Of a stretch of DNA of 64,000 nucleotides, positions 49,611 through 64,000 are shown in pieces. The DNA comes from an uncultured Gemmatimonadota bacterium. Its GTDB lineage: Bacteria; Gemmatimonadota; Gemmatimonadetes; Longimicrobiales; Longimicrobiaceae. The notes beneath the pieces were generated by a model that saw only the letters and a program-made list of their open reading frames with translations, did not search any database and was not told where the DNA came from. How positions within the stretch are numbered: position 1 is the first letter of the stretch; each line of letters opens with the position of its first letter. Made by a program: the position numbers and the translations under genes. Location of the stretch: the NCBI GenBank assembly GCA_902805735.1, contig CADCTW010000002.1, positions 1 to 64,000 on the forward strand. The letters run 5' to 3'.

Positions 49611-50273
49611 TCAAGCTCTGTAAGCGGCGGGCGCCGTGGGGCACAGCTCGGCCAGGGCGCAGCGCTCGCAATAGGGGCGGCGCGCGGTGCAGATGGCGCG
49701 GCCGTGGTCGATGGTGCGATGGGTGAAGTGCACGCGCTCCTCGGGAGGGACCAGGGGGATCAGGTCGCGCTCGATCTTCTCGGGGTCCTGCTCGCGGGTG
49801 AGGCCCCAGCGCTGGGCGATGCGGCGCACGTGCGTGTCCACGACGACGCCTTCCGCCATCCCGAAGGCCACGCCCAGTACCACGTTGGCCGTCTTGCGCC
49901 CGACGCCGGGGAGCTGCGTCAGCGCTTCCATGTCCGCGGGCACCTCGCCGCCGAAGCGCTCCGCCAGCACCCGCCCCAGGCCGATCACCGCCTTGGCCTT
50001 CTGGCGGAAGAAGCCGAGCGACCCCAGCAGGCGCTCCATCTCCTCCTGCGATGCGCCCGCGAAGTCCTCCGCGGTGCGGAAGCGGGCGAAGAGGGCCGGG
50101 GTGGCACGGTTGACCGCCGCGTCCGTGGTCTGCGCCGAGAGCACGGTGGCGACGACGAGCTGCAGCGGGTTTTCGTGCACGAGCGAGCACTCGCTGTCGG
50201 GGTACATTCCCTTCAGCCGCTCGATGATGGCGAGGGTGCGCTCACGGCGTGCGCGCTTGCTTTCTCTGGGCAA
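49611..50273 (-). CDS. nth: Endonuclease III
   Basis: A 220-residue base-excision-repair glycosylase/AP lyase for oxidised pyrimidines. Seen: the helix-hairpin-helix LPGVGRKTANVVL with the catalytic Lys, the catalytic Asp in VVDTHVRRI, and a C-terminal [4Fe-4S] loop with the standard C-x6-C-x2-C-x5-C spacing (CTARRPYCERCALAELC). Its start overlaps the end of polX by 32 bases, so the two repair genes form one operon with the unknown gene upstream. Confidence 0.97.
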   Translation of the reverse strand: MPRESKRARRERTLAIIERLKGMYPDSECSLVHENPLQLVVATVLSAQTTDAAVNRATPALFARFRTAEDFAGASQEEMERLLGSLGFFRQKAKAVIGLGRVLAERFGGEVPADMEALTQLPGVGRKTANVVLGVAFGMAEGVVVDTHVRRIAQRWGLTREQDPEKIERDLIPLVPPEERVHFTHRTIDHGRAICTARRPYCERCALAELCPTAPAAYRA

Positions 50274-51969
50274 AATGTTCTTCCACCTCTTCGAGTTGCC
50301 ACGTGTTCAGGACGCCGCGCGCGCCCAGCCACGCCTTGCGCGCCACGTTCACCCCCCACCCCACGTTGTCCAGCCCGCCCACCGAGTGCGCGTCCGGGTT
50401 GATGGGGACGAGGACGCCGCGCTCGGCCGCGTAGCGCGCGTGCCGCCAGTCCAGCTCCAGCCGGGCCGGGTCCGCGTTGATCTCCACCGCCACCCCGTGC
50501 TCGGCCGCCGCGTCGATCACCGCGCGCACGTCCACCGGATACCCGCTGCGCCCCAGGAGGAGCCGCCCCGTCGCGTGCCCCAGGATGGTGAGGCGCGGGT
50601 TCTGGACGGCGCGGATCAGCCGGTCCGTCTGCTCGCGCTCGCTGCGCTGGAACGCGGAGTGGATGGAGCCGACCACGTAGTCGAAGCTCGCCAGCGTGGC
50701 GTCCGGGAAGTCCAGCGCGCCATCCGCCAGGATGTCGGCCTCGGTGCCCTTGAAGACGCGGAAGCGGCCCTTCCCCGCCCCGCCGTGGGCGCGGTTCCAC
50801 GCGTCGATCTCGCGCTGCTGCTTCGCGACCGCTTGCGGGGTGAGGCCGCCCGCGTAGGAGGCGGCCTGGCTGTGGTCCGCGATCCCCAGGTAGCGCCAGC
50901 CGCGGGCCCGCGCACCCTCCGCCATCTCCGCGACCGTCGCCTTGCCGTCCGAGTAGGTGGTGTGGCAGTGGAAGGTGCCGCGCAGGTCGCCCGGCTCCAC
51001 CAGCCGGGGCAGCGTCCCCGCCGCCGCGGCCTCCACCTCGCCCCACCCCTCGCGCAGCTCCGGCGGCACCCAGGCCAGGCCCAGCGCCGCGTAGAGCGCT
51101 TCCTCCGTGGGCGTCGCGACCGTTCCCAGCCCGTCCGCGCCCAGCGCCAGCCCCCGCTCGGCCGCGCGCGCGGCGAGAGCCTGCACGTGCGCCGCGCTCC
51201 CCGTCCACACGGCGAGCGCGGCGCCGAAACGCTCCGGGGCCACGCAGGCGAACCGGGCCGCGAAGCCGTCGCTGAAGCGCACCTCGACGCGCCCTTCCCG
51301 ATCCCCCGCGCCCGCCGTGTGCTCGCCCAGCGTGCGGAACGCGGCGAGCACCTCGTCCGGGCGGTCCGTGGCGGCGACGAGGTCGATGGAGGCGACGATC
51401 TCCATCCGCCGCCGCAGCTCGCCCGCGAGCTCCGCGGACGAGACCCCCGGGAGGGTGCGGACGTGCTCCACCAGCCGCTCGGCCACCTCCAGCGCGCGGT
51501 CGATGCGCCGCTTCCCCCGCGTCTCGCGCACGTAGGCGGCGCCCTCCAGGATCTTCGCCTCCGTCTTCGCGCCGAAGCCGGCGAGCCCGGCGATGCGGCC
51601 GGCGGCTTCCTCCAGCGCGTCCAGCGAGTCGATCCCCAGCTCGGCGTACAGGGCGCGCAGCCGCTTGGTGCCCAGGCCCTTGATGCGCATCAGGTCGTAC
51701 AGCCCCACGGGCGTCTCCGCCATCAGGCGCTGGTGGAGGCCCGAGCGCCCGGTGCGCACCATCTCGTCGATGATCCCCGCGATCCCCTCGCCGATGCCGG
51801 GGATGGAGGTGAGGGCGCCGGCGCGCGCCAGCCCCTCCACATCGGCGCCGGAGCCCTCCAGCCGCCGCGCCGCGCTGGCGTAGGCGCGCGCGCGGAAGGG
51901 ATCGCCGCCCACGACCTCCAGCAGCATGGCGATCTCGGCCAGGACGGCGGCGGCCTCGGCGGCGGTCAT
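50242..51969 (-). CDS. polX: PolX-type DNA polymerase/3'-5' exonuclease with PHP domain
   Basis: A 575-residue family X repair protein. Residues 1-~330 are the polymerase-like half: helix-hairpin-helix segments (LTSIPGIGEGIAGIIDEM, LMRIKGLGTKRLRALY) and a palm region with IVASIDLVAATDRPDEV. From ~335 the PHP metal-dependent phosphoesterase domain follows (GTFHCHTTYSDGKATVAEMA, GIADHSQ, GSIHSAF, GHATGRLLLG, NPDAHSVGG). The canonical palm G-S-x-R-R..D stretch reads ELAGELRRRMEIVASIDLV, so the first part of the polymerase signature is altered and nucleotide transfer may be weak. The track ORF starts at 52476; ATG 51969 overlaps the previous stop (ATGA). Confidence 0.93.
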   Translation of the reverse strand: MTAAEAAAVLAEIAMLLEVVGGDPFRARAYASAARRLEGSGADVEGLARAGALTSIPGIGEGIAGIIDEMVRTGRSGLHQRLMAETPVGLYDLMRIKGLGTKRLRALYAELGIDSLDALEEAAGRIAGLAGFGAKTEAKILEGAAYVRETRGKRRIDRALEVAERLVEHVRTLPGVSSAELAGELRRRMEIVASIDLVAATDRPDEVLAAFRTLGEHTAGAGDREGRVEVRFSDGFAARFACVAPERFGAALAVWTGSAAHVQALAARAAERGLALGADGLGTVATPTEEALYAALGLAWVPPELREGWGEVEAAAAGTLPRLVEPGDLRGTFHCHTTYSDGKATVAEMAEGARARGWRYLGIADHSQAASYAGGLTPQAVAKQQREIDAWNRAHGGAGKGRFRVFKGTEADILADGALDFPDATLASFDYVVGSIHSAFQRSEREQTDRLIRAVQNPRLTILGHATGRLLLGRSGYPVDVRAVIDAAAEHGVAVEINADPARLELDWRHARYAAERGVLVPINPDAHSVGGLDNVGWGVNVARKAWLGARGVLNTWQLEEVEEHFAQRKQARTP

Positions 51970-52805
51970 CCCGCGCCGGCCAGCCGCACGCGCTGGAAGG
52001 GCAGCCGCGACAGCGGGATGCTCCCCTGGCGGTCTTCCGTGCGCCGCTCGGGCGCCGTCTCGGTGGGGACCTCGCCCGTCTGCGTGTCGATGTACCACAG
52101 GGCGCGCGCCAGCAGCTTGAGCGCCTCGGTGTTTGTCAGGATCGAGTAGAGCCCCGCCATCTCGCCGCCGGGGAGGATGTTCTCGAAATCCCGCCCGCCC
52201 TCGCGCCCCGGCGCCTCCGCCCAGTCCGCCGGGATGCCGGGGCCGACCTCCGTGTCGAACGGGATCACGCTGAACCCCGCGCGATCGCGCCGCACGCCCA
52301 GCACCATCAGCACCTGCAGGTCGCTGAACCCGGGGCCCAGCGGATCGATCCCGGCCGACTGCACGGCGAAGAAGCCGTCCACGGGCTCCGGCGGCGCATC
52401 CACGGCGATGGTGGCCCAGAAGAGGCGCGGGGGAAGCTGCACGTACACGCACGGATAGGGAAGACGCAGCTCCCATCCCGCCAGCCTGGGCGCAGCTTCC
52501 ACCAGGTAGCGCGCGGTGGCCGGCTCCAGCGAGTAGAGCCGCCGGCCGAAGCGCCAGAAGTTGAAGCCGTGGTAGAGGAGGAGGCGGTACTCCTCCAGCT
52601 GCTCGGCCGTGGCGTCGGCGGGCACCACCTGGCGGAGCGCCTCGGCGGCCACGGTGATGAAGCCGAAGCGGTCGAGCCGCGCCGGGTCTTCCGACTGCGC
52701 CTCGGCCTCGGCCTGGATGTCCGGGAACACGCGCTCCTCGAAGCCCGCCTCGCCGAACACCAGCTCGTACGGCGTCACCAGCGGGCCCTTGTCGATCTCG
52801 TTCAT
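51966..52805 (-). CDS. Hypothetical protein in the polX-nth operon
   Basis: A 279-residue soluble protein I do not recognise. It starts MNEIDKGPLVTPYELVFGE at an ATG chosen over the long track extension (53141), which runs through the CACAGAG repeat. Features: an acidic Glu/Ala-rich segment (DIQAEAEAQSEDPARLDRFG), a helical RLLLYHGFNFWRFGRRLYSL, and a central beta-rich part (LPYPCVYVQLPPRLFWATI, GFFAVQSAGIDPLGPG). There is no signal peptide or membrane helix. It overlaps polX by 4 bases (ATGA), so coupling to the repair genes is clear from sequence, though a repair role is only an inference. Confidence 0.7.
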   Translation of the reverse strand: MNEIDKGPLVTPYELVFGEAGFEERVFPDIQAEAEAQSEDPARLDRFGFITVAAEALRQVVPADATAEQLEEYRLLLYHGFNFWRFGRRLYSLEPATARYLVEAAPRLAGWELRLPYPCVYVQLPPRLFWATIAVDAPPEPVDGFFAVQSAGIDPLGPGFSDLQVLMVLGVRRDRAGFSVIPFDTEVGPGIPADWAEAPGREGGRDFENILPGGEMAGLYSILTNTEALKLLARALWYIDTQTGEVPTETAPERRTEDRQGSIPLSRLPFQRVRLAGAG

Positions 52806-52835
52806 ACGGCGATCCCGCGGAAGCCCGTCACGTTC

Positions 52836-52875
52836 TTCCTCCGTGTCTCTGTGTCTCTGTGTGAGGCCCGTTGTT
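52836..52875. repeat. CTCCGTGTCTCTGTGTCTCTGTGTGAG repeat, half copy
   Basis: A reverse-orientation arm of the dispersed repeat in the 157-bp gap between the divergent hypothetical gene and the histidine kinase. It ends GTGAGGCCCGTTGTT. Being between divergent genes, this copy is not in a terminator position. Confidence 0.65.
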
Positions 52876-52962
52876 GAAGGAGCACCGCCGCCTGCAAGCC
52901 CGGTTCCGCGCCTCGCGGAATGGAGCTTGCCCCGTCCACCACAGACCCTTTCCACCGAGCCG

Positions 52963-54144
52963 ATGACCGTATCGCGGAAGTGCCCCCTCGCCGTCACCCT
53001 CGCGCACCGCATGCGCGAGGGGCGCGAGCAGCTGGTGGAGCGCTGGCTCGGCCGGATCGCGCAGCGCGTGGCGCTCTCGCCCAACGAGATCTTCCCCACC
53101 GACGAGCTGCTGGACCACGTGCCGCTCCTCATCGACGGCATCGCGCGCTACCTGGAGGACCCCGCGGACGAGATCACGGCCGACACGCCCGTGGTGGGGA
53201 AGGCGGTGGAGCTGGGCGAGCTGCGCCACGCGCAGGGCTTCGACGCGCACCAGATCCTGCGCGAGTACGAGATCCTTGGGGGCGTGCTCTTCGACTTCCT
53301 GGTCAACATCGCGGACGAGCTGGACGAGCCGTGCACCCGCGGCGAGCTGCTGGTGTGCGGGCACCGCGTCTTCCGCTCCATCGCCGTGATCCAGCAGTAC
53401 ACCACCGCCCACTTCCTGCGCCTGGCGGACGAGCGCACCCGCGAGCGCGAGGACCGGCTGCGCGGCTTCAACCGCGCCGTCACGCACGAGCTCAAGAACC
53501 GCATCGGCGCGGCTGGGGGCGCGCTGGACATGCTGGCCGAGGACTGGGTGGGCGAGAACCCCGCGCAGCGCGCCAAGTTCGTGGGGATCGCCTCGCGCAA
53601 CGTGGCCGCCATGAGGGACACCCTCCAGACCCTCCTGGAGCTCTCCCGCATCGACGACGACGGCGGCCACACGCGCAACGTCCTCCTCCCCGACGTGGCG
53701 GGGGAGGTGCGCCGCCAGCTGCGCGAGTTCGCCGAGGCGCGCGGCGTGGAGGTGGAGGTGGCCGAGGACCTCCCTTCGGCGGAGGTGGGCGCCGCGGCCA
53801 TGGAGCTGGCGCTCTCCAACTACGTGTCCAACGCCGTCAAGTACCGCGACCCCGCCCAGCCGCGCCGCTGGGTGCGCATCGAGGGCGAGCTGCGCAACAC
53901 GGGGGGCGCGTGCGAGATCGTGGTCCGCGTGCGCGACAACGGCCTCGGCGTCCCCGAAGACGGGCGCGACAACCTCTTCCAGCGCTTCTTCCGCGCCCAC
54001 GAGACCGTCACCGGCGAAGAGGGCACGGGCCTGGGCCTCTCTCTGGTCCGCGAGGCCATCGAGGCCTCCGGCGGCCGCGTCTGGGCCGAGTTCCCCGAGC
54101 GCGGCTCCATCTTCGCCCTCAGCGTCCCCTGCACCAGCGGGTAG
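52963..54144 (+). CDS. Soluble sensor histidine kinase with RsbRD-like N-terminal domain
   Basis: A 393-residue cytoplasmic kinase without membrane segments. Residues ~5-160 are an all-helical sensor-like domain (LAHRMREGREQLVERWLGRIA) resembling RsbRD_N. The HisKA box is FNRAVTHELKNRIGAAGG near residue 178, and the ATPase domain has LSNYVSNAVKYRDP (N box), RDNGLGVPEDG (G1) and GTGLGLSLVREAIEASGG (G2). The track ORF starts at 52609 in antisense of the neighbouring gene; ATG 52963 (MTVSRKCPLAV) is preferred. No response regulator is adjacent, so it is an orphan kinase. A terminator follows. Confidence 0.9.
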   Translation: MTVSRKCPLAVTLAHRMREGREQLVERWLGRIAQRVALSPNEIFPTDELLDHVPLLIDGIARYLEDPADEITADTPVVGKAVELGELRHAQGFDAHQILREYEILGGVLFDFLVNIADELDEPCTRGELLVCGHRVFRSIAVIQQYTTAHFLRLADERTREREDRLRGFNRAVTHELKNRIGAAGGALDMLAEDWVGENPAQRAKFVGIASRNVAAMRDTLQTLLELSRIDDDGGHTRNVLLPDVAGEVRRQLREFAEARGVEVEVAEDLPSAEVGAAAMELALSNYVSNAVKYRDPAQPRRWVRIEGELRNTGGACEIVVRVRDNGLGVPEDGRDNLFQRFFRAHETVTGEEGTGLGLSLVREAIEASGGRVWAEFPERGSIFALSVPCTSG

Positions 54145-54193
54145 CGGCGCCGCACGACGTCGAAGGTTCGTCTGCGGGCGCCGGCTGAGCCGG

Positions 54194-54236
54194 AGAGGCA
54201 CGCTGGGATGAAATTGATCTCAGGGTGCCTCTTTCT
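54194..54236 (+). terminator. Terminator of the orphan histidine kinase
   Basis: AGAGGCAC and GTGCCTCT form an 8-bp outer stem, with a further inner pairing (CTGGGAT / ATCTCAG with one wobble) and then TTTCT. It lies 50 bp after the kinase stop. Confidence 0.65.
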
Positions 54237-54333
54237 GTCGCAGCCGACTGCTGGTTTGCACCGCGTGTTTCAGTTTCGCCCCGTTTGAGGCCAAACAGGG
54301 CGACACAGGGGGTTGTTGGGCAGACAAGAAGCT

Positions 54334-54349
54334 GTTAATGATCTTTAAC
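54334..54349. promoter_or_regulatory. AT-rich palindrome upstream of the AraC-like gene
   Basis: GTTAA TGATCT TTAAC is a short palindrome within an AT-rich stretch (GCTGTTAATGATCTTTAACC...ATTTTAATCG), 54 bases ahead of the AraC-like start codon. It is a plausible promoter or self-regulatory operator; exact -35/-10 boxes are not clear. Confidence 0.35.
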
Positions 54350-54402
54350 CGCCATTTTAATCGTACGCGATCGCCTTCTCACTCGATCAGGGGAGCGCGG
54401 GT

Positions 54403-55203
54403 ATGCCGGCCCAGAACGCCATGAGCGAGGAACTCCCCGTCTATGTCCTCGCGCCGCCGTACCGGTGCCTGGAGCCAGCGGGAGTTTCGGCGAGCCTCCG
54501 CGCGGCCGCTCCGGCCGAGGGCGCGGTGATGGCCGTGCACATCGCCGATCCCGAGCGCGAGGGCGTTCTGGCCGCCACGGCGGTGAAGGCCCTGCGCCGC
54601 GCCCGTCCAGCGCACGCGGTGGCGCTGTGGAGCTCCGCGCCGTCGGCGGACGTCCTGGCGGTTGCCCACCTTGCCATGGAGCTGGGCGTGCGCGCGGTGC
54701 TGGCGGGCTCGACGCCGGACCCCGCCTCCATTCGCCGCCAGCTCACGGATCCCATCGGGGTGGCCTCGCACGTGGTGCGCTGGGCCGTGGACTCCGGGCG
54801 GGTGCGTGGTGCCCACGCCGAGGCGGAGCTGCGGGTGATCCTGGAGGCCGCGCCCTTTTGCCGCACGCTCGGCGGGCTGGCGGTGGAGGCAGAGGTCGTG
54901 GAGCGCACCCGCCGCAGCCGCCTGCAGCAGCTCGGGCTTCCGTCGCCGCGCGCCTGGCTGAACCTGGGGCATGAGCTGCAGACGGTGCTGTTCCTCCAAC
55001 GCCACCCGGAGTTGCCGCTCCACCGCGCCGCCGACACACTGGGGTTTGCCGAGCCCACGCCGCTGGTGCACCGCATCCGCCGCGCATTCGGGTGCCGCCC
55101 CAGCCAGGTGCGCTCCATGCTCGGGTGCGAGCCCCTCCTCTCCCTCTGGTTCGGCCGCGCGACTCGAAACGCCAACCTGCGGCGGACCAACGCCCCACCC
55201 TGA
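54403..55203 (+). CDS. AraC-type HTH transcriptional regulator
   Basis: A 266-residue probable DNA-binding regulator. The C-terminal ~80 residues fit an AraC-family HTH: LPLHRAADTLGFAEPTPLVHRIRRAFGCRPSQVRSML (first part matches the IA..LGF..P..F turn, second the F...G..P...R end). The N-terminal ~170 residues (AVHIADPEREGVLAATAVKALRRA...VAHLAMELGVRAVLAG) show alternating helix/strand and could be a degenerate receiver- or ligand-like domain; I do not recognise it. GGGGAG lies a few bases upstream of the ATG. It is monocistronic and followed by a strong terminator. Targets unknown. Confidence 0.75.
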   Translation: MPAQNAMSEELPVYVLAPPYRCLEPAGVSASLRAAAPAEGAVMAVHIADPEREGVLAATAVKALRRARPAHAVALWSSAPSADVLAVAHLAMELGVRAVLAGSTPDPASIRRQLTDPIGVASHVVRWAVDSGRVRGAHAEAELRVILEAAPFCRTLGGLAVEAEVVERTRRSRLQQLGLPSPRAWLNLGHELQTVLFLQRHPELPLHRAADTLGFAEPTPLVHRIRRAFGCRPSQVRSMLGCEPLLSLWFGRATRNANLRRTNAPP

Positions 55204-55211
55204 CGCGCGGC

Positions 55212-55238
55212 GCCCCCTCTCGCCGTGCGAGAGGGGGC
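55212..55238 (+). terminator. Terminator after the AraC-like gene
   Basis: GCCCCCTCTCG CCGTG CGAGAGGGGGC is a perfect 11-bp stem with a 5-base loop, ten bases after the stop codon, followed by ATCCTCTTTCC. Between convergent genes. Confidence 0.75.
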
Positions 55239-55481
55239 ATCCTCTTTCCTAGCGCGCCGCTATCCGGCCGAACGCCAAGACTTCTCAGGCGCGAAGATAT
55301 GGTGCGGGGGCGCGGGTCGTCCCGCCCGCTCCCTCGCGCGGCTTGCCCGCGTCCGCCGCGTCTCCGTAGGGGCGAGTCAGGCCTCGCACGCTGCCTCCCC
55401 ACAACTCCACCCGCACCTCGGAAGACGCCCGCGCGGCTGCCCGTGCCCGGCATGCCGCGCGGGCGGCCCTGGCCGCTTCAG

Positions 55482-57911
55482 TCAACCGTCGCGCAGCGCG
55501 ACCATCGGGTCAATCGCCGCGGCGCGGCGCGCGGGCAGCCACCCCGCCGCGAAGCTCGCGGCGAGGAGGACCAGCGGGACCGCCGCGAAGATCAGCAGGT
55601 CGTTCGCCTCGACACCCAGGAGGAGCCGCGAGACGAGCCGCCCCGCCGCCGCCGCGCCCACGAGCCCCATCACCAGGCCCGCAACGACGGGCGGAAGCCC
55701 CTGCAGGACGACCAGCCGGCGCACGTCGCGGGGGTGCGCGCCCAGGGCCATGCGCACGCCCATCTCGCGCGTGCGCTGGGCCACGCCGTAGGCGATCACG
55801 CCGTACACGCCGACCACGGCCAGGAGGAACGCGACCGTGCCGAAGGCGACCAGGAGCAGGGTGCGGAAGCGCGGCTGCGCCAGGGTCACGGCAATCACGG
55901 CGTCCATGGTCCGCACCTGGCCCACCGGCACCCGGCCGTCCACGCTCCACACGGCGCGGCGCACGTCGGGCGTCAGCGACGCGGCGTCGGCGGGGCCCCG
56001 CACCACGACGGACGAGAAGCGGGTGAGCCAGGAGGGCGCCTGCGCGTGGGGGAAGTAAAGGGCCGGCTCGGGCGGTGCGTCCGGGCGCTCGCGCACGTCA
56101 CCCACCACCCCCACCACCTCGCGGGCTTTCCCGCTCACCACGATCCGTGCTCCCACGGGATCGCCTGCCGGCCAGTACCGCTGGGCGGCGGCGCGGTTGA
56201 CCACCGCCACCGGCAGGGCGCCGGGCGCGTCGGAGGGCGCCAGGCCGCGGCCGCGCAGCACGGGGATGCGCAGTGCGTGGAAGAACCCGGGCGAGGCGGC
56301 GCGCAGCGCGGCGGTGGGGCCCTCCTGGGGAGCGGCGGGGCGGCCCTCGATCTCGAATCCCGTCTGCCAGAACCCCCCCCCCATCGGCAGCACGTTCACG
56401 GCGCCCGCGGACTCCACCCGCGGGAGCGCGTCGAGGGCGCCCAGCACCTCCGTGTAGAAGCCCGCCATCCGCTCGTCCGTCTCGTAGCCCTTCACGGGCG
56501 GGAAGAGCGAGAGCGTGAGCACGCCGGCCGGGGCGATCCCCGTCTCCACCTGCTGCAGGCGCCAGAGGCCGCGCAGCAGGAGCCCCGCCTGGGAGAGCAG
56601 CACGACCGTGAGCGCCACCTCGGCGGCCACCAGAACCTGGCGAAGGCGGCGCTGCCCGCGGCCGCCCGTGGGCGCGCCGGCCTCCCGCAGGTCCGAGTGC
56701 AGGTCGCCGCGGGCCGCGTGCAGCGCCGGGCCCGCGCCGAACAGCAGGCCGGTGGCGAGCGACAGCAGGAGCGCGAACCCCAGCACCCGAGGGTCCAGCT
56801 CAGCCGCCTGCAGGCGGGGCAGCTCCCCCGCGGCGAGCCTCACCAGCGCGCCGGCGGCCGCCCACGCCAGCGCGACCCCCGCGGCTCCCCCCAGCACGGC
56901 CAGCAGCAGGCTCTCCACGACGAGCTGCCGCACCAGCCGGGCGCGCGAAGCCCCCATCGCCGCGCGCACCACCAGCTCGCGGCGGCGCCCGGTGTAGCGG
57001 GCCAGGAGGAGGTTGGCCACGTTCACGCATGCCACCAGCAGCACCCCGCCCACCGCCGCCAGCAGCACCAGGAGCATTGGGCGCACGGGGGCGACCATCT
57101 CCTCCTTCAGCGAGACCACCCGCGCGGCACGGTCGCGGTTGGCGGCGGGATCGAGCGCCTCCAGGCGGCGCATCACACCCGCCATCTCCGCCTGCGCGCG
57201 CGCCAGCGGCACCCCCTCGCCCAGCCGGCCCACCACGGCCAGGAAGCGCGTTCCCCGCCCGCGCCCCTCCTCGGTCCAGGAAGCGGGAGGCGAGCGCCAG
57301 AGGCGCGGCTCGCCGGCCGCGCCAACGCCCAGGCGCGGGTCTTCGAAGCTGGCGGGGGCCACCCCCACCACAGTGTATCCCGTGCCGTTCAGCCGCAGCT
57401 CGCGGCCCAGCACCGCCGGGTCCGCGCCGAACCGCTCGCGCCAGAGGCCGTGGCTCAGCACGACGGAGCGGACGGCCCCCGGCGCGTCCTCCTCGTCCAC
57501 CAGGAAGCGCCCCAGCGCCGGCCGCACCCCCAGCACGCGAAAGAAGGAGGCGCTCACCGAAGCCGCGTCCAGCCGCTCGGGGTCGCCCGCGCCCTCCAGC
57601 GTGGCGCTCCACCCGTCGTACGCCGCGATCGCCTGGAACGAGCGGGCCTGCGCGCGCCAATCCGCGAAGTTCGGATACGAGGTGCGCGTCTCGGTCTCCA
57701 CCGCGGCTTCGCGAGGCACGTCGTCCAGCCGCACCACCCGCTCGGCATCCTCGTACGGGAGCGGACGCACCAGCACGGCGTGCACCACACTGAACAGTGC
57801 GGTGTTGGCCCCGATCCCGACGGCCAGCGTCAGCACGGCGATCGTCGTGAAGCCCGGCGAGCGCCGCAGGGTGCGCAGGGCGTAGCGGAGGTCCGCAAGC
57901 AGCGTTTCCAT
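55482..57911 (-). CDS. MacB/FtsX-type ABC permease of the ADOP class
   Basis: An 809-residue membrane protein of the duplicated orphan permease type. It begins METLLADLRYALRTLRRSPGFTTIAVLTLAVGIGANTALFSVV, the ADOP hallmark, followed by a MacB_PCD periplasmic domain, a first FtsX domain near 270-400 (LLVALLAAVGGVLLVACVNVANLLLA-type sequence), a second periplasmic domain, and a second FtsX domain near 680-800 (GVYGVIAYGVAQRTREMGVRMALGA). There is no ATPase gene nearby, which is usual for this class. Likely role: mechanotransmission or export across the envelope; substrate unknown. The 255-bp gap upstream (57912-58166) shows nothing I recognise. Confidence 0.92.
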   Translation of the reverse strand: METLLADLRYALRTLRRSPGFTTIAVLTLAVGIGANTALFSVVHAVLVRPLPYEDAERVVRLDDVPREAAVETETRTSYPNFADWRAQARSFQAIAAYDGWSATLEGAGDPERLDAASVSASFFRVLGVRPALGRFLVDEEDAPGAVRSVVLSHGLWRERFGADPAVLGRELRLNGTGYTVVGVAPASFEDPRLGVGAAGEPRLWRSPPASWTEEGRGRGTRFLAVVGRLGEGVPLARAQAEMAGVMRRLEALDPAANRDRAARVVSLKEEMVAPVRPMLLVLLAAVGGVLLVACVNVANLLLARYTGRRRELVVRAAMGASRARLVRQLVVESLLLAVLGGAAGVALAWAAAGALVRLAAGELPRLQAAELDPRVLGFALLLSLATGLLFGAGPALHAARGDLHSDLREAGAPTGGRGQRRLRQVLVAAEVALTVVLLSQAGLLLRGLWRLQQVETGIAPAGVLTLSLFPPVKGYETDERMAGFYTEVLGALDALPRVESAGAVNVLPMGGGFWQTGFEIEGRPAAPQEGPTAALRAASPGFFHALRIPVLRGRGLAPSDAPGALPVAVVNRAAAQRYWPAGDPVGARIVVSGKAREVVGVVGDVRERPDAPPEPALYFPHAQAPSWLTRFSSVVVRGPADAASLTPDVRRAVWSVDGRVPVGQVRTMDAVIAVTLAQPRFRTLLLVAFGTVAFLLAVVGVYGVIAYGVAQRTREMGVRMALGAHPRDVRRLVVLQGLPPVVAGLVMGLVGAAAAGRLVSRLLLGVEANDLLIFAAVPLVLLAASFAAGWLPARRAAAIDPMVALRDG

Positions 57912-58166
57912 TTCGGCCGGCCCCGGGCGGGGCGTTGAAGGATTTAGTCCGATGACGGGAACCCCGGCTACATCCTGGCGGACGTGCCGAGTGCGGCTTC
58001 GTGACCGCGAAGCGCAAACACCAGGTGCTGAACCGCGATTGCCAGGCGCCAGGGACTAGGCACCCAGGAGTCCGCGCTTCGCACTGCCGCCCTCGACCAA
58101 TGGCATCATACACACGATAGACCGCGTGTGCACTCTCGCACGAAACGCGGTCCCGCACAAGTCCGA

Positions 58167-59966
58167 TCACGCGATCAGCGCAGCCGGGGGCGCCTGCGCG
58201 TCCACGTCGCGGAACTGGTGCGCGGCCAGGGCGCGGTAGCTGCCGCGCCGGGCCAGCAGCTCGTGGTGAGTCCCCTCCTCCACGATCCTTCCGTCCTCCA
58301 CCACCAGGATGCGGTCGGCGTCGCGCACCGTCGCCAGGCGGTGGGCGACGACGAAGGTGGTGCGGTCCCGTTTCAGGGCGTCCACCGCCTGCTGGATCAG
58401 CGCCTCGGAGGTGGAATCGACCGACGAGGTCGCCTCATCCAGCAGCAGGATGCGCGCGTCCTTGAGGAAGGCCCGGGCGATGGAGATCCTCTGCCGTTGT
58501 CCGCCGGAGAGCTTCACCCCGCGCTCCCCCACCTCCGTGTCGTAGCCCAGAGGGAGGGCGTCGATGAACTCGTGCGCGTTGGCGGCCCGGGCGGCCCCCT
58601 CGACATCCGCGTCGCTGGCGCCGAGCCGGCCGTAGCGGATGTTCTCGCGCACCGAGCCGGCGAAAAGGTGCACCTCCTGCGCGACGACGGCAACCTGTGC
58701 GCGCAGCGACTCCAGCGTGAGCCCGCGAACGTCGTGCCCGTCCACCCGCACGCACCCCGAGGTGACGTCGCTGAAGCGGGGGATCAGGTTCAGCAGCGTG
58801 GTCTTGCCCGCGCCGCTGGGCCCCACCAGCGCCACCGTCTCCCCCGGGTTCGCTCGGAACGAGACGCCGTGCACCACCGGCCGCCCATCGTAGCCGAACC
58901 GCACATCGTCGAAGCGCACCTCGCCTCGCGCGGCGAACAAGGGCACGGCGCCGGGAGCGTCGGCCACGTCGGGCGGGGTGTCCAGGAGCTCGAAGAGCCG
59001 CTCAGAGGCGCCCGCGGCGGAGTTGAAGATGGAGTACACCGTGGCCATCTCACCCACGCTGCCGGAGATCTGCTGTGAGAGGAAGAGGAAGGCCACCAGG
59101 TCGCCCACCGTGAGCCGCCCGGCCAGCACCTCGCGCCCGCCGTACCAGAAAATGGCCACGGTGGATGCGTAGAAGAGCATCTCCACCACGGAGGTGAGGA
59201 GCACCGACACCCGCGCCGAGTTCCGCGCGGCGCCGACGAGCGCTTCCACCGCGCCTCGATAACGCCCCACCTCGTGCGCCTCGCGCCCGAAGGCCTTCAC
59301 CACCCGCACTGCGGAAAGCGCCTCCTCCGCCACTGCAGTGGTCTCGGCCAGCCGGTCCTGCACGCGGCGCGAGTGCTCGCGCGCGACCCGGCCAAAGGTG
59401 CGCGAGACCACCGAGGCGACGGGAAGCACCAGCACCACCCACACCGCCAGCCGCCAGTTCAGCGTGAGCATCAGGGCCAGGGCTCCCCCGAAGCGCGCGA
59501 GCTGGTAGATCACCGCCACCGACGCGTCCGTCACCGCGATGCGCACCGACCCCACGTCGCTGGTGAGGCGGGAGATGATCTCGCCGGTGCGCTGGTTGGC
59601 GAAGTAGCCCACGCTCAGCGTGTGCAGGTGCGCATACACCCGGGTGCGCAGGTCCGCGGTGATGCGGTCGCCGGTCACGCGCAGCAGGTACTGAAAGGCG
59701 AAGGTGATCCCCGCCCGCGCCACGAACAGGGCCAGGAGCAGCAGCGCGATCCGGTCCACCATGCCCCGGCTCCCCCCGCGCACCACCGAGTCCAGCAGGG
59801 CGCGCAGCCCCATGGGCATGGCGAGCGAGGCGGCCACGGCGAAGAGCGAGAGGAAGATCACCACCCCCAGCCGCGTCCGGTACGGACGCGCCAGCGCCAG
59901 GATGCGGCCCATCTGCCGCGCCAGGCGGACCCTGGAGCGGGCGGGCGTGGGAGCCGGGGGGATCAC
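58167..59966 (-). CDS. lanT: ABC exporter (fused membrane and ATPase domains) of the lanthipeptide locus
   Basis: A type I ABC exporter half-transporter of 599 residues. Six membrane segments in residues ~20-310 precede an ATPase domain with Walker A GPSGAGKTT, signature LSGGQRQR, Walker B ILLLDEATS and the H-loop VVAHRLAT. There is no N-terminal C39 peptidase domain, so it would export but not cleave the peptide. The track ORF starts at 60035, overlapping lanKC by 62 bases; I prefer GTG 59966, eight bases after the lanKC stop with GAGGCGG just upstream. Role in exporting the lanthipeptide is inferred from this tight linkage; the sequence alone would also fit a lipid or drug exporter. Confidence 0.85.
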   Translation of the reverse strand: MIPPAPTPARSRVRLARQMGRILALARPYRTRLGVVIFLSLFAVAASLAMPMGLRALLDSVVRGGSRGMVDRIALLLLALFVARAGITFAFQYLLRVTGDRITADLRTRVYAHLHTLSVGYFANQRTGEIISRLTSDVGSVRIAVTDASVAVIYQLARFGGALALMLTLNWRLAVWVVLVLPVASVVSRTFGRVAREHSRRVQDRLAETTAVAEEALSAVRVVKAFGREAHEVGRYRGAVEALVGAARNSARVSVLLTSVVEMLFYASTVAIFWYGGREVLAGRLTVGDLVAFLFLSQQISGSVGEMATVYSIFNSAAGASERLFELLDTPPDVADAPGAVPLFAARGEVRFDDVRFGYDGRPVVHGVSFRANPGETVALVGPSGAGKTTLLNLIPRFSDVTSGCVRVDGHDVRGLTLESLRAQVAVVAQEVHLFAGSVRENIRYGRLGASDADVEGAARAANAHEFIDALPLGYDTEVGERGVKLSGGQRQRISIARAFLKDARILLLDEATSSVDSTSEALIQQAVDALKRDRTTFVVAHRLATVRDADRILVVEDGRIVEEGTHHELLARRGSYRALAAHQFRDVDAQAPPAALIA

Positions 59967-59973
59967 CGCCGCC

Positions 59974-62694
59974 TCACGCGAGCACCAGGGCGGGCGCGAC
60001 CACCGCTTCCGCACCGCCCGCCGCGGGGGCCGCATTACGCAGCAGGATCTCGTCCGGGAAGAAGAGGTGGGGAGCCCGCGGATTCAGCAGGCGCAGGAGG
60101 AACTCGCCGATCCCCGCCGATCCCATCCCGTAGTCGCAGGAGATGCGGATCAGCTCGGCCCCCGGAAAGGCGATCCCGCCCTCCCTCCGCATCCGGTGCG
60201 GCAGCAGCGCCGTGGACACGTGGAAGGCGTCGTTCAGGTACCGCTCGTCGCCCAGGAAGCGGTGCATGTCCAGCAGGAAGTGCCCGTACCCGCTCATCCC
60301 GTAGTCGTACCACAGCTTGTTGGAGGTGCGCTGCGTGCAGGTCGCGGCGCAGCGCTCCGCCCATCCTCGGTAGCGCTCCTCGCCGGTCAGCGCGTAGAAG
60401 CGCAGGAGCGCGCTCCCTACGCCGGCCGATCCGTGACGGATGTGGGGCGACTTGGGAGCGTCCAGCTTGGCGCCCACGCGCGGGTACCAGAGCACGCGCG
60501 TGTTGAGCGCCTGCGCCTGCGCCAGCTCGAACTCCAGCGCCTTCTCGGCCGCTTCCACGAAGGGCGCGTGCGGCGAAGCGGCGTACAGGTAGGTGAGGAA
60601 AGCGGCCACACCGCTGGCGCCGAAGCCCAGCCCCACCGGGGTTTCCTCCGGCGTGGGCCAGCAGAGGCCTTCCGGCTCCTCGCGCGCGTCCTCGAGCAGT
60701 CGCTCACCCACCTCCAGCGCGCGGTCCAGCCAGCGGCGTTCGCCGGTGCGCCGCCAGAAGGTGAGCGCCGCCAGCCCCCACCCCGCCGCTCCCCAGTGCA
60801 GCCCCGCCACCTCGTGGATCTCGTCCGGCCGGTCGGAGAGCGTCATGATCTCCGCGGCCTCCTCGGAACGGCCGGCCTCCAGGAGGAAGAGCGCCACCCC
60901 GGAAAGCCCCGTGTAGAGCGCCGGCGGGCAGGCGATCCGCCGCGCGCGCTCCGCCACCCAGTCGGCCACTCCGTCTGGAAGGCCCCCGCCGGCGCGCAAC
61001 AGGAAGAGCCCCGTTCCCGCCGCGCCGAACTGCAGGCTGATGGGGTTGGTCAGGAACAGCTCGCCCGAGGCCGGCCAGAGCCGGTCCCCACGCCCCAGGT
61101 CCAGGTGAGAGCGGATGTACGCGCCCGTCCCGTCCAGGGTCGCGGCCAGCTCGGCTCGCAACGCGGCGTCCGGCTCGCGCGGCACGGCCCCGGTGTGGCC
61201 GGGGGGCGGCGGAGCGATCTCGTCGAGCGCCGCCAGCACCTGGTGCGGGCGCCACCGGGTTTCCGGCTCGGGCTCCAGCAGCCCCGCCACCACCGTGCGC
61301 AGTTCGGCGGGGAGCCCCTGGTCGTCCAGCACCAGCGAGAGTCCGTCCAGGATCCCCTCGCGATGGAGCGGGAGCCCGGACGCGGTGAACGACAGGCTGT
61401 CCAGGATCAATGCGCCGAGGGCGTAGTGGTCTTCCTGGGGGGTGGGACGCTGGTTGCGCAGCTGATCGGGCGAGGCGTACCCGGGCGTCCAACCGGCCAC
61501 CGAGGGGTCGTCGCGGTCCAGCTCGAAGGCGAACTCGAAGTCGATGAACTTCACGCGCCCGTCCGGGGTGAACATCACGTTCGTCTTGGTCATGTCGCGC
61601 AGCACTACGCCGTGCGCGTGGATCGTCTCCAGCCCGCGGATCAACTCGCGGATGGTCGCGCGGATCACCTCGAACGCCTCCGCAGGCGTGCGCTCGCGCT
61701 CCATAGTTTGGGTGAAGCCGATCGCGTATCCCCAAAGCGACTCAACGTCCTGCAGCTTCTCCTGCACCAGGAAGGTGTGCTCCCACTCCTGGAACAGGTC
61801 CACGAATCGGGGGGCCAATCCCGTCCCCTGCAGCCGCGAGAGGATGCGGCCCTCCTTCTCCAGCAGCCGCACGGCGTCGGTCGCCTCGTCACGCTCGCTC
61901 AGCATAGGGCGCGCCTCGCGGATCACGACGGTCTCCCCGGTCCGCGTGTCGTCGGCCTCGTAGATCCCCCCCACGCTGGAGTACTTGAGGGCGCGAGTCA
62001 CCCGGTACCGGCCGTCTTTGAGCCACACCTCGCCGCCGTTGTCCGAGGGGAGCGGCTCGCTGGCGAAGGGGTCCTGCACCCACGGGGGGAGCGTGTAGTG
62101 AGCCTTGCGCTCGTCGGAGTAGCGAGTCCCGTCGGGGCTCAGGATGGCGCGCTGCATCTGCCCGGACGGCTGCATGCGCGGCGCGCCCACGTGCTCTCCG
62201 TAGCGGTAAAACACCACCCCGCTCTCGCGGAACGGGCAGTCGGAGAGGATATACGGGCCGTACAGCCCCGCGGTGGCTTCGTGAAGCCGCTCCAGCAGGA
62301 TCAGGAAGTGCTCGTCGTTCTTGGGGTAGACGGTGATGAACTTTCCCGCCCCCGCACGCGGCCAGTTCTTTCCCGTGGAGAGCGCCACCATCCGGGTGTC
62401 GGAGCAGAACTTGAAGGGGGTCTCCTCCTCCACCAGTACGGGCACCACGCGCCGCAGCGTCTCCCCGGCGTTCCCTCGCGTGGACGAGACGTGGATCTTC
62501 CACCCCTGCACACGGTGCCGATACCCGCGCGGCGTGGAGTACGACCAGAACCCGCCGGGGGTGAGCACCCATCCGTCTCCTACCTGCCCGCGCACCACCG
62601 CCATCAGCTCGTCTCCGGGCTGGTAGCGGTCGAGGCTCTCAAAGAACTCGCGGTCCAGGAGCGTGAAATGGAATCGCGGCTGATCGCTTCTCAT
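59974..62694 (-). CDS. lanKC: Class III lanthionine synthetase LanKC
   Basis: A 906-residue three-domain enzyme that phosphorylates, eliminates and cyclises Ser/Thr and Cys in a precursor peptide. Residues 1-~210 are the lyase region, ~230-490 the kinase domain (LKYSSVGGIYEA glycine loop; catalytic RDMTKTNVMF; IDFEFA in place of DFG), and ~510-890 the LanC-like cyclase. The cyclase lacks the zinc Cys-Cys-His set: where LanC has CHG it reads HIRHGSAG, so class III rather than class IV. The beta3 position reads VVIREARP, with Arg where LanKC enzymes normally have the ATP-binding Lys. The precursor gene lies 81 bases upstream with a hairpin between, and an ABC exporter follows by 8 bases. Confidence 0.93.
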   Translation of the reverse strand: MRSDQPRFHFTLLDREFFESLDRYQPGDELMAVVRGQVGDGWVLTPGGFWSYSTPRGYRHRVQGWKIHVSSTRGNAGETLRRVVPVLVEEETPFKFCSDTRMVALSTGKNWPRAGAGKFITVYPKNDEHFLILLERLHEATAGLYGPYILSDCPFRESGVVFYRYGEHVGAPRMQPSGQMQRAILSPDGTRYSDERKAHYTLPPWVQDPFASEPLPSDNGGEVWLKDGRYRVTRALKYSSVGGIYEADDTRTGETVVIREARPMLSERDEATDAVRLLEKEGRILSRLQGTGLAPRFVDLFQEWEHTFLVQEKLQDVESLWGYAIGFTQTMERERTPAEAFEVIRATIRELIRGLETIHAHGVVLRDMTKTNVMFTPDGRVKFIDFEFAFELDRDDPSVAGWTPGYASPDQLRNQRPTPQEDHYALGALILDSLSFTASGLPLHREGILDGLSLVLDDQGLPAELRTVVAGLLEPEPETRWRPHQVLAALDEIAPPPPGHTGAVPREPDAALRAELAATLDGTGAYIRSHLDLGRGDRLWPASGELFLTNPISLQFGAAGTGLFLLRAGGGLPDGVADWVAERARRIACPPALYTGLSGVALFLLEAGRSEEAAEIMTLSDRPDEIHEVAGLHWGAAGWGLAALTFWRRTGERRWLDRALEVGERLLEDAREEPEGLCWPTPEETPVGLGFGASGVAAFLTYLYAASPHAPFVEAAEKALEFELAQAQALNTRVLWYPRVGAKLDAPKSPHIRHGSAGVGSALLRFYALTGEERYRGWAERCAATCTQRTSNKLWYDYGMSGYGHFLLDMHRFLGDERYLNDAFHVSTALLPHRMRREGGIAFPGAELIRISCDYGMGSAGIGEFLLRLLNPRAPHLFFPDEILLRNAAPAAGGAEAVVAPALVLA

Positions 62695-62737
62695 TGCTTT
62701 GGGTCCCGGGAACCAGGTTGGGGTGGCCGAGGAGGGT

Positions 62738-62766
62738 GCCCCGCGCCGGGCGTGCCGGCGCGGGGC
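62738..62766 (-). terminator. Intercistronic hairpin between precursor and lanKC
   Basis: GCCCCGCGCCGG GCGTG CCGGCGCGGGGC is a perfect 12-bp stem with a 5-base loop, ten bases after the precursor stop and without a T-run. In lanthipeptide operons such a hairpin typically lets the precursor be made in excess of the enzyme, by partial termination or 3' protection of the short mRNA. Confidence 0.7.
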
Positions 62767-62775
62767 GGAACCACT

Positions 62776-62910
62776 TCAGAAGTACGCTTCCTCGCCGGCG
62801 CTGCTCTTGTTGGACTCGCAGCTCACCACCGACGGGCAGCTGACGTCCGAGTTGGTGCAGGACGGGTTGTTGCTGTCGGGGAACATCTGAAGCTTGAGCA
62901 CGTTCTGCAT
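62776..62910 (-). CDS. lanA: Class III lanthipeptide precursor (44 residues)
   Basis: This gene is missing from the ORF track. ATG at 62910 with strong GGGAGG six bases upstream; TGA at 62776-62778. The leader starts MQNVLKLQMF, containing the (I/V/L)LxLQ-type motif that class III LanKC enzymes recognise. The core has three Cys (18, 25, 31) and Ser at 21, 24, 27, 30, 33 and 36, a strict three-residue spacing (TNSDVSCPSVVSCESNKSS). Ser24-x2-Ser27-x3-Cys31 fits the S-x2-S-x3-C labionin pattern; the other Ser/Cys could form lanthionines. It ends in an acidic/aromatic tail (GEEAYF). Position directly before lanKC supports the call. The leader cleavage site and ring pattern are not determinable here. 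Confidence 0.85.
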   Translation of the reverse strand: MQNVLKLQMFPDSNNPSCTNSDVSCPSVVSCESNKSSAGEEAYF

Positions 62911-62958
62911 GACGACCTCCCAGAGGAGAGTAAATGGTGGCACCTGGCTAGTGCCGCC

Positions 62959-62996
62959 GCTCTAAATATCCCGCGAAATATTTTCGGGTAAAGAGC
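62959..62996 (-). promoter_or_regulatory. AT-rich nested palindrome in front of the lanthipeptide operon
   Basis: GCTCT...AGAGC (outer) encloses CCCGCGAAATATTTTCGGG (19 bases, imperfect palindrome), the only AT-rich stretch in the 126-bp gap before the precursor gene. It lies about 50-90 bases upstream of the precursor ATG, where a promoter and operator would be expected. The cognate regulator is not identified. Confidence 0.45.
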
Positions 62997-63036
62997 TGAT
63001 TTCGGCACGTCGCTGCCGATAACGACAATCAGGTGT

Positions 63037-63729
63037 TTACGACCCGATTTCCGTCTCCAGCACCTCCGGCGCCGCGCCGGAAAAGAATCCCCTCAGCGAC
63101 TCCCACGCGCCGCGGCGGCGCACCAGCACCAGCGCCACGTCGTGCTCCTCGCCGCAGAGGTCGAGGGGGTAGATGAAGTGCACGTCACCCAGGTCGTCCG
63201 GGCGGGGGATGGTGTGCTCCACCCCGTCCAGCTCCACGCGCAGCTGGGTGAGCGACGCGAACTCGCGCGCGTCCATCTCGCGCTCCACGAACAGGTCGCC
63301 GTCCACCTGCCAGCGGCCGGGCCCGGCGGGCTCCCCGGCGCGAAAGAAGAGGGGATCGAAGGGCTCGCCCTCGCGCCGCTTGAAGTTCTCGTCCTCCGCG
63401 TAGTCCATCTCCTCCAGGTCGTCCTCCCCCGCGGCGGACTCGCGGTGGTGGCGCACCTCGTGGGTCACCGTCTCCCACAGCTCTCCCTCCCAATCGAACT
63501 CCTCGTACAACCTGGAAAGCTCGAGGAAAGACCCATAGTACAGGTGCACCCCCGAGCGCTCCGCGTCGATCTCCCCGGTCGCGCACTCGCCCAGCGTGAA
63601 CACGTCCGGCAGCGTGGGATGCGCCACCGTCTCGCGCGACACCTGCAGGTACGCCACGCCCTCGCGAAGCTCCGGAGGGATCCCCTCGTAGATCTCCCGC
63701 GCCCGCCGCTCGAACTCGTCGAAAGTCAT
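63037..63729 (-). CDS. Zincin-like metallopeptidase-family protein
   Basis: A 230-residue cytoplasmic protein with an HExxH-type motif in TVTHEVRHHRE near residue 82, matching the small metallopeptidase (zincin-like) family. The N-terminus MTFDEFERRAREIYEGIPPELREGV is typical for that family; a long acidic/variable C-terminal part (residues ~95-230) is extra. The track ORF begins at 63753 in the repeat; ATG 63729 is preferred. It lies upstream of the lanthipeptide operon on the same strand but is separated by a palindrome-bearing gap, so a leader-peptidase role is possible but speculative; a housekeeping role is as likely. Confidence 0.8.
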   Translation of the reverse strand: MTFDEFERRAREIYEGIPPELREGVAYLQVSRETVAHPTLPDVFTLGECATGEIDAERSGVHLYYGSFLELSRLYEEFDWEGELWETVTHEVRHHRESAAGEDDLEEMDYAEDENFKRREGEPFDPLFFRAGEPAGPGRWQVDGDLFVEREMDAREFASLTQLRVELDGVEHTIPRPDDLGDVHFIYPLDLCGEEHDVALVLVRRRGAWESLRGFFSGAAPEVLETEIGS

Positions 63730-63738
63730 TTCTTCGAT

Positions 63739-63801
63739 CTCACACAGAGACACAGAGGCACAGAGAAAAGCTTATCTCTGTGCCTCCGTGCCTCTGTGTG
63801 A
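63739..63801. repeat. CACAGAG repeat, paired copy (hairpin)
   Basis: The left arm is identical over 28 bases to the one at 49545. After an 8-base spacer (AAAGCTTA) comes an imperfect inverse arm (TCTCTGTGCCTCCGTGCCTC...). It lies between clpP and the metallopeptidase gene, both on the minus strand, and could act as a terminator for clpP. Confidence 0.75.
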
Positions 63802-63812
63802 CCCCCATCTGT

Positions 63813-64000
63813 TTATTTGACTTCGTCCATGCTCCGCACGATGTGCTTCACGAGCCCGTACTCCCGCGCCGCCTCCACGTTGAGCCAGAAGTTGCGCCGC
63901 GTGTCGTTCTCGATCCGCTCGATGGACTGCCCGGTCTGCTCGGAGAAGATCCGGTTGATCCGCTCGCGCATGCGCACGATCTCCTGCGCCTCGATGGCGA
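63813..64000 (-). CDS. clpP: ATP-dependent Clp protease proteolytic subunit (3' part only)
   Basis: The last 62 codons of a minus-strand gene that runs out of the window. The translation IEAQEIVRMRERINRIFSEQTGQ, then IERIENDTRRNFWLNVEAAREYGLV, matches the C-terminal helix and handle region of ClpP (compare the usual IEKDTERD..MSAEEAKEYGL). The aspartate in the ENDTRR stretch fits the catalytic-triad position. Stop TAA at 63813-63815. The Ser and His of the triad lie outside the window. It is not in the ORF track because it has no start here. Confidence 0.9.
   Translation of the reverse strand, partial: AIEAQEIVRMRERINRIFSEQTGQSIERIENDTRRNFWLNVEAAREYGLVKHIVRSMDEVK

Follow-up and report, generated by a model that had tools for sequence, protein, structure and literature searches.

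A tandem C-x(1,2)-S-x-x-S repeat in precursors encoded beside a divergent class III-like lanthipeptide synthetase

The core of a small peptide encoded by an uncultured Gemmatimonadota bacterium consists of three tandem C-x(1,2)-S-x-x-S hexads, and its gene stands beside that of a class III-like lanthipeptide synthetase (LanKC). The peptide was found in a 64,000-nucleotide stretch of DNA, here called the window, and belongs to a hexad family that we define as seven precursors from four genomes (the window, G012, G394 and G483). The genes and their products, as read from sequence, make it likely that this is a modular-precursor lanthipeptide, made by a divergent, zinc-ligand-free class III-like enzyme clade that would install one staple per hexad.

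The precursor and its gene cluster

The precursor has Ser at positions 13, 17, 21, 24, 27, 30, 33, 36 and 37 and Cys at positions 18, 25 and 31. A sequence-only reading of this DNA had pointed to an exact S-x-x rhythm from Ser21 to Ser36 with Cys25 and Cys31 interleaved, and to one segment, S24-x2-S27-x3-C31, that fits the labionin rule; the translation confirms each of these points and adds Cys18, which was absent from that reading. The core contains two exact copies of C-x-S-x-x-S and one of C-x2-S-x2-S. The proposed three-residue period is indeed conserved, but the actual unit is the tandem C-x(1,2)-S-x-x-S hexad, with two Ser per Cys. The leader carries the LxLQ motif as VLKLQ, which, together with the adjoining zinc-less LanKC, supports the earlier assignment to a class III-type precursor.

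Among 200,000 shuffled versions of the entire peptide, six Ser in a row at step 3 arose with P=2.5e-4 (0.025%), and a six-Ser run at any of the steps 1-7 with P=1.8e-3; when shuffling was confined to residues 17-37, the values were 2.8e-3 (step 3) and 1.5e-2 (any step 1-7). The run in a single sequence is therefore only moderately surprising, suggestive rather than conclusive, and we accept it as real because all six Ser are invariant across the seven precursors of the four genomes. The Ser codons are mixed (TCG/TCC/TCA and AGC/AGT), which argues against a recent DNA repeat that is passively carried. A DNA-level repeat artefact was rejected on the basis of these codons and of the divergence of the x positions, and a chance open reading frame on the basis of conservation in four genomes.

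Table 1. Features of the window at and around the precursor gene
Feature	Position	Strand	Remarks
Precursor peptide gene, 44 aa	62776-62910	minus	Translation MQNVLKLQMFPDSNNPSCTNSDVSCPSVVSCESNKSSAGEEAYF
Precursor parts			Leader MQNVLKLQMF...; core units C18-TN-S21-DV-S24 / C25-P-S27-VV-S30 / C31-E-S33-NK-S36
Shine-Dalgarno region	62911-62925	minus	GGGAGGTCGTC; before precursor ATG; strong/good, GGGAGGT
Class III-like lanthipeptide synthetase LanKC, 906 aa	59974-62694	minus	RamC_N lyase, kinase, LanC-like cyclase
ABC exporter (transmembrane and ATPase domains)	58167-60035	minus	Pfam; same place in G483 and G394 clusters
MacB/FtsX-type permease, 809 aa	55482-57911	minus	Next gene; identical order in window, G483 and G394
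Zincin-like metallopeptidase gene	63037-63753	minus	Immediately upstream of precursor; HEVRHH motif; just below Pfam PF06262 cut-off

The LanKC gene directly follows that of the precursor, and the order precursor, LanKC, ABC exporter, MacB/FtsX is common to the window, G394 and G483. The exporter frame overlaps the end of the synthetase, so its true start is probably internal; Pfam found no peptidase domain in the exporter. The MacB/FtsX-type permease is a probable member of the cluster, serving in export or immunity. The zincin-like protein was rejected as the leader protease, given its Pfam score and the fact that no such gene was noticed beside the G394 and G483 precursors. Inspection of the open reading frame lists for window positions 50000-64000 and for L029, L108 and L007 revealed no second synthetase.

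Relatives and conservation of the repeat

Used as a single-sequence query, the window precursor retrieved no family relative, and the relatives were therefore reached through the synthetase. A single-sequence scan of genome contigs with the window LanKC gave no match; of 394 genomes in the window's class, only some 2% have a related LanKC. In G012, from the same genus as the window, the LanKC is 62% identical and three precursors lie just downstream, two with ...ECLSIASCVSVPSCVSVPSCLSLRSG... (4 units each) and one with ...ECVSVTSCISIPSCLSVPSCVSVPSCVSARSG... (5 units). A scan of genome contigs with a LanKC alignment led to L029 of G394, a Thermoanaerobaculia MAG from another phylum than the window, with a LanKC of 45% identity and two 3-unit precursors, ...DACGSNISCQSTNSCISRKSRLAA and ...CQSTASCISRKS..., and a search of Thermoanaerobaculia yielded the third relative, G483 (LanKC 47%), with one 3-unit precursor, ...GGCAQSSISCVSNTSCFSMTSTP.... 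Every family core contains an integral number of C-x(1,2)-S-x-x-S units, namely 3, 4 or 5. Viral contigs held one distant LanKC only, and plasmids held distant LanKCs and no hexad precursor. Profile searches of 302 genomes for orphan hexad precursors returned only the known ones and weak matches (E 0.002-0.01), mostly within long frames.

When the seven precursors were aligned blind with MAFFT, the only invariant columns were N3, L5, L7 and Q8 of the leader together with S21, S24, C25, S27, S30, C31, S33 and S36. Homologues keeping the Cys and losing the Ser period would have spoken against the sequence-only reading; these keep both. With the last three units registered by hand, the C/S sites are identical in 81/81 comparisons and the three x sites of each unit in 6/81; hand registration favours the C/S sites, yet the register is nearly forced, since the precursors differ in length there by one residue only, between the first Cys and its Ser. 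Ser is followed immediately by Cys at each of the 13 unit junctions.

These features set the family apart from 35 other LanKC-linked precursors, in which the longest step-3 Ser run is 1-3, with a run of 5 once, in a Ser-rich core. A Ser/Thr pair lies downstream of 18/18 Cys in the hexad clade, as opposed to 15/96 Cys in the 35 other precursors, a comparison in which kinship within the clade is uncorrected. The conventional upstream Ser pair, S-x2-S-x(2-5)-C, is present for 8/18 family Cys, and in the window core for one of three (C31). Because the downstream pair is complete and the upstream pair is found for fewer than half of the Cys, the crosslinking probably goes beyond a single S24/S27/C31 ring. 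The sequence-only reading had also suggested that overlapping S-x-x-S pairs might permit several alternative ring registers or a ladder of crosslinks, either of which may apply.

The synthetase

All three expected domains of the window synthetase (RamC_N, Pkinase and LANC_like) score above the Pfam cut-offs, and the NCBIfam LanKC model NF038151 matches at 637.7 bits (cut-off 575). The whole protein also resembles class IV enzymes in scoring 644.3 bits with the LanL model, just under its cut-off of 650. However, the zinc-ligand columns of its LanC-like domain are R753, D797 and Y798, instead of the Cys-Cys-His of class IV, so that the cyclase is without metal ligands, like class III; class IV membership was rejected for this reason and for the sub-cut-off score. 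Among 89 LanKC homologues, 54 have the CCH ligands, which are absent from the hexad-associated clade.

Residues K66, H68, K95, K118 and D152 of the lyase domain align with residues that were tested in ThurKC and shown to matter there (PMC10604976). The kinase has Arg259 at the place of the usual ATP-anchoring Lys. The same replacement occurs in 10 of the 89 homologues, namely throughout the wider clade, which has six members, and in four actinobacterial LanKCs (L026, L031, L033 and L037). In ThurKC, the substitution K257A yielded degraded peptide only (PMC10604976). We assume that the window enzyme is active as a kinase despite Arg259; like every clade member, it retains the lyase residues as well as the Asp/Asn and D-[FL]-E motifs of the kinase.

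A FastTree phylogeny of the 89 synthetases groups the four enzymes that accompany hexad precursors in one clade (support 0.968), with the G007 and G011 synthetases as sister; the group including these two has support 0.997. The precursors of these sister enzymes lack the hexad: G011 cores are irregular, and G007 has period-4 Ser/Thr-Cys modules. Thus, the repeat length itself seems to evolve within this enzyme clade. The G007 precursor at L008:7207-7407 carries the repeat TISC VSTC TVSC TSTC.

Discussion

Based on the domains of the enzyme and the layout of the cluster, we propose that a short leader with its LxLQ recognition motif would present the tandem hexads, three in the window, to LanKC, which would phosphorylate the evenly spaced Ser residues and eliminate the phosphate to give dehydroalanines (Dha) at every Ser. 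Each Cys thiol would then start one crosslink, either with a Dha-x-x-Dha pair, forming a labionin, or with one Dha, forming a lanthionine. The result of one staple per hexad would be a rod- or ladder-like polycyclic peptide, presumably secreted by the adjoining ABC exporter and freed of its leader by an unlinked protease.

The direction of these crosslinks can be weighed only by judgement, and the weights given here are not computed. The conventional direction, with overlapping rings S(n)-S-C(n+1), has in our estimate somewhat less than an even chance. It uses known chemistry, places the S-x2-S-x3-C residues at positions i, i+3 and i+7 on one helix face, and would explain both the fixed Ser-Cys adjacency at the 13 junctions and the uninterrupted Ser run. 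Its weak points are the first two Cys, which lack a complete Ser pair, and the two final Ser, for which no Cys remains. A labionin is not certain even so, since S-x2-S-x3-C in some class III peptides yields, through its first Ser, a lanthionine instead (PMC7268733). We tentatively consider that the family may instead use a new kind of crosslinking, in the form of reverse labionins within each hexad or of an enolate relay that would stitch several successive residues along a Dha-x-x-Dha-x-x-Dha face. In a reverse labionin, Cys would attack the downstream Dha pair of its own C-x-S-x-x-S, giving separate, non-overlapping bicycles. That arrangement fits the downstream pair present for every Cys and the make-up of the arrays, which start with Cys, end with Ser and hold Cys and Ser at 1:2 with none left over; a single C-x-S-x-x-S has also been named 'reverse labionin'-like, as a motif, in a Streptomyces subfamily (PMC11251773). 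Against it, we found no established example of a crosslink running this way, Cys and the nearer Ser are closely spaced (C-x-S), and positions 1, 3 and 6 would not lie on a common helix face, unlike i, i+3 and i+7. The first unit, moreover, can take one additional residue between its Cys and the Ser that follows, and neither the Ser-Cys adjacency at the junctions nor the confinement of length variation to the stretch from first Cys to first Ser is explained, so that reverse labionins remain a doubtful but serious candidate. A crosslink direction other than conventional or reverse appears unlikely.

Two accounts would dispense with a staple in every hexad. In an ordinary class III peptide, one labionin or lanthionine would form from S24, S27 and C31, perhaps with a plain lanthionine between S21 and C25, the other Ser being simple dehydroalanines or unmodified, and the period would be mainly a feature of helix or solubility. 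Conventional motifs predominate in published work (PMC11251773, PMC7268733) and serve 68/96 Cys in the other precursors compared here, and ThurA1 bears many dehydrated residues as well as a labionin (PMC10604976). Such a peptide would not, however, account for the invariance of Ser33 and Ser36, which lie C-terminal of every Cys, for the complete last unit in 7/7 precursors while the residues between vary freely, or for a unit count that changes by whole hexads (3, 4 or 5), and we regard it as improbable. The other account, in which LanKC makes no crosslink, the Cys serve in disulfides or metal binding and the Ser undergo phosphorylation at most, could draw on the Arg in place of the kinase Lys and on the unusual cyclase site. 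The intact catalytic motifs throughout the clade and the conserved pairing of an LxLQ leader with an adjacent LanKC make it very improbable. One staple per hexad is thus the reading that we favour.

The enzyme is of a kind already known, a class III-like LanKC, and we would class the tandem hexad core as a variant of class III lanthipeptides for which we found no description. Like peptides of the labyrinthopeptin, SapB and ThurA1 kinds, the window system combines a zinc-ligand-free lyase-kinase-cyclase, an LxLQ leader, one S-x2-S-x3-C segment and an ABC exporter. Unlike them, the family has 3-5 tandem units with an unbroken run of Ser at every third residue and ends in a complete Cys-first, Ser-last unit, and its synthetases have Arg for the kinase Lys and D-Y/F/M where the other LanKCs compared mostly have F-x. 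Streptomyces 'subfamily C' (PMC11251773) likewise places a C-x-S-x-x-S string beside a lyase-kinase type synthetase, but with one Cys per peptide, no tandem array and an actinobacterial host, and its clusters additionally encode a class II enzyme and a partner peptide that lacks Cys; the main subfamily in that study has 2-3 Cys (PMC11251773). The sequence-only reading knew of no class III core with this repeat, and we likewise found no published description of a tandem hexad core in the open-access literature, subscription papers and supplementary tables being outside the scope of the search.

Within a single enzyme clade, the number of identical, presumed crosslinking units varies naturally (3, 4 or 5), with almost complete change at the free positions. 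Known class III products usually have one to three rings. Comparison within the family therefore provides a natural test of what governs ring direction and register in a zinc-free LanKC, and the array is a possible scaffold for programmable stapled peptides. If reverse labionins or the relay were confirmed, hexad number alone would set peptide length and ring number. As far as we found, these clusters also extend LanKC chemistry to groups without a characterised member.

Several further loci were observed. A second LanKC locus of G394 (L110:2796-4182) carries five tandem precursors with conventional cores of the SDKSRTC/SCISLFC type and, beside the hexad locus, provides a natural contrast within one genome. 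In G483, a radical SAM gene (L108:2443-4011), with a Cys-rich C-terminal region that is SPASM-like by eye, is the close upstream neighbour of the hexad precursor and LanKC genes, so a further type of crosslink may be introduced in this cluster through that enzyme. At L112 (G063:C11:67497-69041 and 71747-72844), LanKC matches occur in two pieces about 2.7 kb apart, the N-terminal half and then the cyclase, and between them lies a precursor-like open reading frame with a LALQ leader (L112:6601-6777).
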